A stretch of 37,746 nt of DNA, from positions 1 to 37,746 of IMG/VR virus record IMGVR_UViG_3300010412_000039; one strand, written 5' to 3'. The first letter of the stretch is position 1. Every line of letters begins with the position of its first letter. The notes below the pieces were generated by a model. It worked only from the letters and a program-made list of their open reading frames with translations, was not told where the DNA came from and ran no database searches. This DNA is from a virus. Of this stretch, positions 25,092 to 31,690 are shown piece by piece. Both the position numbers and the translations under genes were made by a program.

Positions 25092-25120
25092 AAACTTTCT
25101 AGAAAGTTTTTGGATGTAGA

Positions 25121-25151
25121 AGAGATGGGAGAAATCCCATCTCTTTTTTTT
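25121..25151 (+). terminator. Rho-independent terminator
   Basis: AGAGATGGGA (25121-25130), GAAA tetraloop, perfect complement TCCCATCTCT (25135-25144), then a long T-run. It closes the exported-protein operon. An 18-bp perfect palindrome AAACTTTCTAGAAAGTTT (25092-25109), followed by T, lies just upstream, directly after the stop codon. Confidence 0.93.
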
Positions 25152-25159
25152 CTTTTGGG

Positions 25160-25190
25160 GGTTTACAATTACATAAAAGTGTCGTATAAT
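25160..25190 (+). promoter_or_regulatory. Phage promoter, TTTACA-17-TATAAT, for the SSB gene
   Basis: GG then TTTACA (25162-25167), 17 bp, perfect TATAAT (25185-25190). It lies directly after the terminator and about 95 nt before the SSB start codon, leaving a long leader that holds regular repeats. Confidence 0.88.
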
Positions 25191-25218
25191 TGTCATAAGC
25201 CTAGAGACAAGTTACCCG

Positions 25219-25291
25219 AAATTACCGATATATTACCCGAAATTAACGAAATCAGAAGGCTAAATTAACATAGAAAAGGAGACAAATTAAC
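25219..25291 (+). promoter_or_regulatory. Candidate autoregulatory RNA operator in the SSB leader
   Basis: Four boxes of AAATTAMC at 25219, 25240, 25262 and 25284, with spacings of 21, 22 and 22 nt; the last runs up to the start codon at 25293. The first two lie in a longer repeat, TTACCCGAAATTA. The SD (AAAAGGAG, 25274-25281) sits between the third and fourth. T4 gp32 represses its own translation by cooperative binding to an unstructured leader; this layout suggests the same. Confidence 0.6.
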
Positions 25292-25292
25292 G

Positions 25293-26276
25293 ATGAGTAA
25301 ATGGATTGACAAAGAATTGTTCAACAAATTTGCTGAACAAAAGACAAAAGAAGCTGAACAAGAACAGCAAAACAAAGGCAGTACCTCAAGAATGGGGAAG
25401 ATTTGGCCAACACCTGAAAGAGGAAGTGTTGATAAGCCAAAAGTTTATGAAGGTAGATTCCTACCGGATCAAAAGGGCAAATTCTATCTAAAGTATTTTT
25501 ACCATATGTTCATGTCAGGAGAACAATGGCAATTTATTTTATGCCCTAAGACAGAATCAATGGATAACTGGTGTCCATGGTGTTCTGTAACTCAGAAGCT
25601 TTTTATGGGAGGATCTGAAGATAAAAAGCAAGCACAGGTTTATAAGAGAAAAGAAAAATATGTTGGAAACTGGTTTATAGTAAAAGATCCTAGAGATGTT
25701 GAGAAAGAAGATCCAGAAGATAAAGTAGAAAATACTGTAAGGCTCTATGAATTTCCTGGTAGAGTAGAATCAAAACTTAAGCAAGAAATTACAGATACCA
25801 AGCAAGGTTACGGATATGCTATTTTTGATCCAGGTGAAGATGGGTTTAATTTCATCCTCAAAGTAAAGTCTACTAAGAAAGACAGAGAGGGTAGAACTTG
25901 GCCAGATTATAGTGATTCAATGTTCTCTAGGCAATCTGAAGCTCTTGGCAGTGACAGACAGATTCAACAGATCTTGAAAAACTGTTATGATCTTGAAGAG
26001 TATGTTAAAGATCTAGAGAGACCTGAAGATGAAATTAAAGATCTTCTAAAGGTGGAAATGGTATGGGATCTTGTAGAGTCTGAGTGGCAAAGAATGAAAG
26101 GTCTTCAAGAAACAAAAGAGAAAGTAGAGAGAACCAGAAAAGAAGAAAAAGAGCTTGAACTACCAAACGATGAACCTCAAGCAGAAGAGCCAAAAGAAGA
26201 AGAAGAACCAGAAGAGGTTAAAACTGTAGAAGAAGAATCAGATGAAGACTTGTTGGCAGAATTAGAAAATCTGTAA
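25293..26276 (+). CDS. Single-stranded DNA-binding protein, T4 gp32-like
   Basis: 327 residues. Zinc ligands H71, C84, C94 and C97 have the same 13-10-3 spacing as T4 gp32 (H64, C77, C87, C90), within aromatic-rich OB-fold strands (KFYLKYFYHMF; WQFILCP). The N-terminal region is basic and Gln-rich, the place of the cooperativity domain. The C-terminus from about 270 is highly acidic (EEPKEEEEPEEVK; ending DLLAELENL), the usual docking tail for replication partners. It would coat single-stranded DNA and organise the replisome. It has its own promoter, repeat-bearing leader and downstream hairpin. Confidence 0.92.
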   Translation: MSKWIDKELFNKFAEQKTKEAEQEQQNKGSTSRMGKIWPTPERGSVDKPKVYEGRFLPDQKGKFYLKYFYHMFMSGEQWQFILCPKTESMDNWCPWCSVTQKLFMGGSEDKKQAQVYKRKEKYVGNWFIVKDPRDVEKEDPEDKVENTVRLYEFPGRVESKLKQEITDTKQGYGYAIFDPGEDGFNFILKVKSTKKDREGRTWPDYSDSMFSRQSEALGSDRQIQQILKNCYDLEEYVKDLERPEDEIKDLLKVEMVWDLVESEWQRMKGLQETKEKVERTRKEEKELELPNDEPQAEEPKEEEEPEEVKTVEEESDEDLLAELENL

Positions 26277-30449: not shown

Positions 30450-30846
30450 AAGAGATGGTATAGTAAAATGGGAAGATGTGCCTGACCTAGATAAATGTGG
30501 ACTTTTTGTTGATGGAAAAAGGATCTTCCCTGCACAAGCTAAAAATGTTAACCTCTTACCAAAGGAGTGTCAAATGAAAGTTCGTTATGCTGTTGTTAAT
30601 CACAAAGAGAAAGAGGAATTTGAAAAGAAATGGCAAATGCCATATGGCTACAACAACAGTCCTAAGATCTGCTTTAATCAGGATGAAGCAATAAGATGGA
30701 TCAACCAAAACTTAGGACCAAACGAAAGAAAGAGTTATGTAGTTGAAAGACATAAATCCGGTAAGATTGATGTTGTTTGGAAGATTTTGGATGGTCCTAA
30801 GCTTGCTGGAGAACAGGAGGATGAATGGGATGATGAAGAGTTTTAA
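30433..30846 (+). CDS. Hypothetical 137-residue protein
   Basis: SD AAAGAGGAAAG. Mixed alpha/beta pattern with a Trp-rich middle, a segment QDEAIRWINQNLGPNERKSYVVE, and a very acidic end (EQEDEWDDEEF). It overlaps both neighbours by 17 bases. No family recognised. Confidence 0.72.
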   Translation: MLKITERDGIVKWEDVPDLDKCGLFVDGKRIFPAQAKNVNLLPKECQMKVRYAVVNHKEKEEFEKKWQMPYGYNNSPKICFNQDEAIRWINQNLGPNERKSYVVERHKSGKIDVVWKILDGPKLAGEQEDEWDDEEF

Positions 30847-31690
30847 ACCTATCTTTGTTGAAGGAACAAATCTGGATGATACATGGTTCAAGCTTCTAGC
30901 TGAAGTCTATAAGCATGGCAGAAGAAACAGAATTGATACTGGTTCATATGAGAAAGAAACTGACAGATTAGAATTTGACTTTGTAGCTGGAAGTATCAAG
31001 TATCCTACTGACAGACCACTCTCACCAAGACTTGAGGGACTTGCTGTACCACCACCAACAACAGATGAAGATATTGAAAAATACTTTGCTAACTACTTAA
31101 TGAATGGTGCATTGACAGACAATGAACATTACAAGTATGCTACATGGATTGTTGGTGGGAAATATAAATTACCTGTTAAACCCAAGGTAACAATAGAAAA
31201 TACAGATGTTGACACTGGTGCTCAATATATAGTTACAGAAGTAGAACAGGGAAATATTATAATGAATGTACCGAATGCTCTTGAGTGGATTGTAAAACAT
31301 TACCAAGAGAAAGGATATGCCAATAATCATTGCTACATTCAAGTTGGATATCCTGAAAGCAATATGGCATATGATATCCCATATAAGGATGAAACCGAAA
31401 GACAAACTTCTCCATGTCTCAGAGGAATAGATACCAAGATAGTTGAAGAGCTAGGATATAAATTTCTTCTCATGAATGTCTACTTCAGGTCTTGGGATTT
31501 ATGGGGAGGTTGGCCAGAAAACATGGGAGGAATGGTTCGACTAATGGAGACCATCTGTGAAATGCTAGGGGATGTAAGGCCAGGAGCACTTTCATTTGCA
31601 TCCAAGGGGCTTCATTGTTATTGGTTCCAATTAGATGCTGTAGCTTGTAGATTAAATATAGAAAGAGAAAAGGAAGATGAAACATCTTGA
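30830..31690 (+). CDS. thyA: Thymidylate synthase-family enzyme
   Basis: 286 residues from ATG 30830, nine bases after AGGAGG. Active-site residues line up with E. coli ThyA: nucleophile C196 in SPC, R220 and D223 in YFRSWD (E. coli YQRSCD), N231 in GWPENM (GLPFNI), and H262 and Y264 in GLHCY (DTHLY). Spacing R220-D223-N231 is identical. An Asn at 231 favours dUMP over dCMP, so the product is probably dTMP, though a dUMP hydroxymethylase cannot be excluded. The N-terminal third diverges from bacterial ThyA and is closer to archaeal-type members. Works with the downstream reductase on dNTP supply. Confidence 0.82.
   Translation: MMKSFKPIFVEGTNLDDTWFKLLAEVYKHGRRNRIDTGSYEKETDRLEFDFVAGSIKYPTDRPLSPRLEGLAVPPPTTDEDIEKYFANYLMNGALTDNEHYKYATWIVGGKYKLPVKPKVTIENTDVDTGAQYIVTEVEQGNIIMNVPNALEWIVKHYQEKGYANNHCYIQVGYPESNMAYDIPYKDETERQTSPCLRGIDTKIVEELGYKFLLMNVYFRSWDLWGGWPENMGGMVRLMETICEMLGDVRPGALSFASKGLHCYWFQLDAVACRLNIEREKEDETS

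Follow-up and report, generated by a model that had tools for sequence, protein, structure and literature searches.

The leader of a single-strand DNA-binding protein (SSB) gene in this viral DNA carries a short, evenly repeated box, and the question it raises is whether the SSB uses that leader to control its own synthesis, as gp32 does in phage T4. The original prediction, made from the letters of the window (the whole 37,746-nt stretch analyzed, IMG/VR record IMGVR_UViG_3300010412_000039), considered an independent version of the gp32 operator plausible. We compared the locus with about 40 distinct ssb loci obtained from scans of viral contigs; no ssb relatives were found in bacterial genomes, and the relatives of the window SSB among named phages have only 27% identity to it.

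The SSB and the setting of its gene

The window SSB matches the SSB family PHROG 224 (1.7e-21) and, in a profile comparison, the T4 gp32 core 1gpc (E 3e-9); a Pfam search with the same protein gave no match. When an AlphaFold2 model (mean pLDDT 70) was submitted to Foldseek, it retrieved 1gpc (1.2e-12) and RB69 gp32 (2a1k, TMt 0.75, E about 1e-12). The zinc-ligand spacing is that of T4 gp32, as originally predicted (H71-x12-C84-x9-C94-x2-C97, compared with H64, C77, C87, and C90 in T4), and these ligands are invariant in 8 homologues. The predicted similarity of the acidic tails was also borne out, with the window protein ending in DEDLLAELENL and T4 gp32 in DLDDLLNDL. By profile and by fold, the window SSB is a genuine, distant gp32 homologue with an OB fold core. 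Its N terminus (MSKWIDKEL) is without the LAST motif, (K/R)3(S/T)2, which is KRKST at residues 3-7 of T4 gp32, so the cooperativity of the window SSB is an assumption.

The features of the locus are collected in Table 1. Most relatives have an ssb promoter of the kind listed there, and the window leader is weakly folded, no better than its shuffles (MFE -6.3, z +0.8). The upstream terminator-like hairpin is also present in the two nearest contigs (L001 and L002) and in L003, with a different hairpin in L004 and L005; a GC-rich hairpin lies 3' of ssb in the window and its close relatives, its sequence having diverged in L004 and L005. The palindrome occurs once in the window, and its core CTTTCTAGAAAG is kept at about the same place in L001, L002, L003, and L005, with a variant in L004; it is probably separate from the leader. 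The ssb neighborhood includes a gene for a T4-RNase-H-like 5'-3' exonuclease; other parts of the window encode ribonucleotide reductase, primase, and ligases. Directly downstream of ssb is an Hsp20-family small heat-shock protein gene (PF00011, 26397-26765). The window also contains four phage tRNA genes, at 325-474 and 1398-1565, and a weak match to thymidylate synthase (PHROG 160) at 30743-31687 that covers the C-terminal part only and possibly represents a divergent form.

Table 1. Positions in the window of features at the ssb locus
Feature	Position	Strand	Basis or remark
Perfect palindrome AACTTTCTAGAAAGTT	25093..25108	.	Between upstream gene and terminator
Hairpin resembling an intrinsic terminator, ending the upstream transcript	25118..25147	+	Predicted
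ssb promoter TTTACA-17-TATAAT	25162..25190	+	Consensus-type, sigma-70-like
ssb mRNA leader, ~96 nt, 47% A	25197..25292	+	Start inferred from -10 box
Strand a, AGCCT, mRNA 5' end	25198..25202	+	Predicted pairing with 25257-25261
Array, 10-11 nt register	25212..25292	+	TTAMC at 25212, 25222, 25233, 25243, 25265, 25287
Box 1, AAATTACC	25219..25226	+	Inside loop; AAATTCCC in L003
Box 2, AAATTAAC	25240..25247	+	Inside loop; kept in L003
Strand a', AGGCT, partner of strand a	25257..25261	+	Predicted
Box 3, AAATTAAC	25262..25269	+	Directly 3' of strand a'; kept in L003
Shine-Dalgarno AGGAG	25277..25281	+	Sequence
Box 4, AAATTAAC	25284..25291	+	Between Shine-Dalgarno and ATG; AAATTAAT in L003
gp32-family SSB, 327 aa, acidic tail	25293..26276	+	Homology, zinc ligands

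The box array and its fate among relatives

The four AAATTAMC boxes stand where they were originally placed, at spacings of 21, 22, and 22 nt, and they do run up to the start codon, with a single G between box 4 and the ATG. Their clustering in the leader is real and not due to chance. The 8-mer is not rare across the window (10 found, 6.1 expected), with a mean of 0.06 copies per dinucleotide-shuffled leader; when the 96-nt leader was dinucleotide-shuffled 1000 times, no shuffle contained any one-fold-degenerate 8-mer four times, and a scan of both strands of the window found no comparable 8-mer family in any further stretch of 96 nt. Counted from the inferred mRNA start and with one mismatch allowed, six copies lie at offsets 12, 22, 33, 43, 65, and 87, which gives a true register of 10-11 nt; the original prediction had seen every second step of it. 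Split by this register, the leader reads TTACCCGAAA / TTACCGATATA / TTACCCGAAA / TTAACGAAATC / AGAAGGCTAAA / TTAACATAGAAA / AGGAGACAAA / TTAACG / ATG. The strongest period in a periodogram is 10.9 nt; when all periods of 6-26 nt are considered, 28/500 shuffles equal it, and within the 10-11.5 band 2/500 do.

A period this near to one helical turn (about 10.9 bp), in an array adjoining a strong promoter, would also suit a site in the DNA itself, where a transcription regulator binds or the DNA bends downstream of the promoter. We consider this reading very improbable, because the array lies entirely within the transcribed leader and continues through the Shine-Dalgarno sequence to the start codon, because L004 and L005 lose the register but keep the RNA helix described below, and because in other relatives compensatory RNA helices take the place of the boxes.

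Among close relatives, the repeats are absent in part. The leaders of the two nearest contigs are identical to that of the window, L003 (88% protein identity) keeps 2 of the 4 exact boxes (boxes 2 and 3), and L004 and L005 (69% protein identity) keep none; there CGAAACTAA replaces CGAAATTAA, occurring about three times in L004 and fewer times in L005. Beyond these 69%-identity relatives exact AAATTAMC boxes are absent, and an even register of ~10.9 nt was rejected as a conserved rule since it fails in L004 and L005. L033, the sister of the window clade in the tree (98/83 support), has boxes of its own in its leader, TACAGTAR three times (3/500 shuffles). The exact boxes are thus local and are not the conserved element; the trait that recurs among relatives is the architecture of the leader.

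Two adjacent 21-nt copies (TTACCCGAAATTAMCGAWATM) contain boxes 1 and 2, which are therefore not independent events. It is thus conceivable that a 21-nt unit was doubled by a neutral local duplication, with an A-rich leader yielding look-alike boxes elsewhere and the whole having no function, and the lack of box conservation at 69% identity fits such an origin. We regard this as unlikely in view of boxes 3 and 4, which lie outside the duplicated unit yet share its register, of the independent boxes in L033, and of leader conservation that exceeds that of silent sites at two distances. Compared with the window, leader identity is 86/96 in L003 (four-fold sites, 56/82; p 6e-4) and 62/97 in L004 (four-fold sites, 24/65; p 1e-3). 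Between L004 and L005, the leader changes faster than silent sites do (15/86 versus 6/97, p 0.02).

In about half of the relatives, the ssb leader measures 11-48 nt or a small ORF adjoins the gene on its upstream side, and these loci would thus have no such operator. If the ssb leader is an operator, it would have been gained and lost among these phages. The small ORF stands directly before ssb, in place of a long leader, in L040, L043, L046, L050, and L069. The AACGAAATCA repeats of L008 resemble the boxes and were rejected on inspection by eye, as they fall within an ORF of 42 codons that immediately precedes ssb. In L012, the ssb homologue has no ATG, GTG, or TTG start and its frame opens with ATT ATT TCT (86-91); it likely uses an ATT start after a very short leader.

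A predicted 5'-end helix and predicted pseudoknots in other relatives

Two features of these leaders were missed by the original prediction, namely a helix at the 5' end and the pseudoknots predicted in relatives. For each leader, the best helix formed with the first 16 nt was scored against 500 shuffles. In the window this helix is AGCCU/AGGCU (5 bp, 7/500 shuffles), with its second strand 54 nt downstream; it has 6 bp in L004 and L005 (1/500 and 3/500) and 4 bp in L003 (40/500). A 5'-end helix that closes an A-rich loop of 37-54 nt just before the Shine-Dalgarno sequence is predicted in 15 of the 17 long ssb leaders, each of these helices being equaled by at most 40/500 shuffles; the two leaders that did not pass are those of L033 and L110. 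The combined p value (one member per lineage, both failures included) is 2e-11, and 2e-4 for the non-pseudoknot lineages alone, values that are descriptive because the helix test was framed after the leaders had been inspected. The helix of the window clade is short and its GCC/GGC core pairs never vary; this invariance, together with a one-column shift that MAFFT introduces at strand a', led us to leave out a covariation count for the window clade.

Where this promoter type serves other genes of the window, L003, and L004 contigs, the leaders are mostly 12-59 nt long, and none of the other non-coding leaders of at least 55 nt in these three has a 5'-end helix better than its shuffles. An A-rich leader as a general habit of the phage was accordingly rejected, the other strong-promoter leaders being short or devoid of a 5' helix.

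In another part of the tree than the window clade, nine leaders score as H-type pseudoknots with 0-4/300 shuffles (L032/L036/L073, L034/L041, L047, and L049/L056/L066). In these predictions, a second helix crosses the 5'-end helix, its 3' strand lies close upstream of the Shine-Dalgarno sequence, and the first loop is long and A-rich. As positive controls, the same script recovered the known pseudoknots of T4 (18/300) and RB69 (1/300). Both helices show compensatory changes. Over 3 sequence types, 10 of 13 pairs are altered on both sides, a count made on rows aligned by structure, which favors a compensatory result; the helix of L049/L056/L066 has 2/9 pairs altered on both sides, weak on its own. 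Pseudoknots at p<=0.01 occur in 8/37 ssb leaders and in 14/150 other upstream regions (p 0.05), an excess so modest that the single scores and the repeated topology weigh more than the count. A pseudoknot in the window leader itself is unsupported, since its crossing pair is equaled in 30/300 shuffles (27/300 in L003); no crossing pair was found in the L004 and L005 leaders, and a second helix is absent from the window clade. At the gathering score, Rfam reported only the tRNAs in the window and no family in 11 relatives, T4, or RB69.

Much of this anatomy could also belong to a constitutive element, in which the 5' helix blocks 5'-end-dependent decay and the A-rich loop acts as a ribosome standby site or S1-binding enhancer, giving high SSB levels without feedback. 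A 5'-terminal helix, an unpaired A-rich leader, and a consensus promoter suit a strongly expressed gene, the mRNA of T4 gene 32 is itself unusually stable (PMC3014915), and the L004-L005 comparison, where the loop changes fast and the helix is kept, fits selection for composition rather than sequence. Such an element is the main competing explanation, although we hold it to be doubtful, since it leaves unexplained the six in-register boxes, the different boxes of L033, and the crossing helices that abut the Shine-Dalgarno sequence in other relatives, and since most other genes that share this promoter type in these phages have short, plain leaders.

A candidate operator compared with known systems

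Based on the above comparisons, we favor, at a probability of roughly 55%, the reading that the leader is a gp32-type autogenous translational operator of new architecture that would limit the SSB's own synthesis. The layout of the leader is shared with related phages, several of them with predicted pseudoknots, so this is probably a T4-like self-regulating switch that is built differently. The dedicated promoter would yield an mRNA with a ~96-nt, almost unpaired, A-rich leader whose boxes continue through the Shine-Dalgarno sequence to the start codon. When SSB exceeds the available single-stranded DNA, several monomers would bind side by side on the boxes of the loop, the weak 5' helix would open, and binding would extend across boxes 3 and 4, keeping the ribosome off. 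Exposure of single-stranded DNA during replication would draw SSB off the leader and let translation resume. The helix, or the pseudoknot in other relatives, may serve as the nucleation or recognition feature, the role played by the T4 pseudoknot. Throughout this scheme, we infer from leader anatomy that SSB binds there. In its favor, the original prediction of an independent operator has the gp32 homology and a mostly unpaired, A-rich leader conserved above silent sites; against it, the exact boxes on which it was built persist in the nearest contigs only.

More tentatively, and with somewhat less than even odds, these phages may form a separate gp32-phage lineage whose fast-evolving ssb operators follow one plan, in which a strand at the 5' end closes an A-rich loop, bound by SSB, ahead of the Shine-Dalgarno sequence; one clade would realize this plan through in-register boxes and another through H-type pseudoknots with long loops. 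If this shared plan is true, SSB autoregulation by RNA reaches beyond the T4-type phages and uses a different RNA. According to a 2010 review, viruses may offer no other example of a pseudoknot serving translational autoregulation than that of T4-type gene 32; the review noted that RB49 seems to be without one and called for study of diverse gp32 systems (PMC3014915). The leaders described here vary in nature (with boxes alone, a helix alone, a helix and a crossing helix, or nothing of the kind) and belong to genes for homologous proteins, which makes the recognition of its own mRNA by an otherwise sequence-neutral SSB testable through leader and protein swaps. We found no earlier description of these leaders in the open-access papers searched; one may exist elsewhere.

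For the gp32 proteins of T4 and RB69, autogenous repression through their own mRNA leaders is proven (PMC535899, PMC3014915). In the T4 operator, a ~28-nt pseudoknot precedes an unpaired stretch that bears UUAAA/UAAA repeats, and repression requires both (PMC535899); the original view that a regular repeat was not described for T4 is thus inaccurate; even spacing of ~10.9 nt is the only respect in which the window repeats differ. The window resembles the T4 gene 32 operator (also that of T2 and RB69) in having a gp32-family SSB behind its own mRNA leader, a mostly unpaired A/U-rich segment with short UUAA-like repeats over the ribosome site, and relatives with predicted H-type pseudoknots. Unlike T4 and RB69, whose compact pseudoknot (~28 nt) has closely spaced repeats 3' to it, the window has no compact 5' H-type pseudoknot; leaders of its type pair a 5'-end strand with a site 37-54 nt downstream, the window boxes lie both inside and after the loop, and a dedicated sigma-70-like promoter stands in place of the 59-32 gene order. 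The RB49-type gene 32 leader is similar in having no pseudoknot; it keeps UUAA/UUAAA units according to one source (PMC535899) and lacks the A+U-rich sequence according to another (PMC3014915), a disagreement that leaves this comparison unsettled. Pseudoknots near SSB genes are also a feature of the STAXI motif, but there the pseudoknots are repeated in tandem, and it was proposed that they possibly serve as single-stranded DNA (Weinberg 2010, PMC2864571); Rfam gave no such match in the window or in the relatives scanned. In the M13 gene V protein, which acts on gene II mRNA, a phage SSB likewise serves as an mRNA-specific translational repressor (PMC535899), although that SSB is unrelated and its target is another gene.
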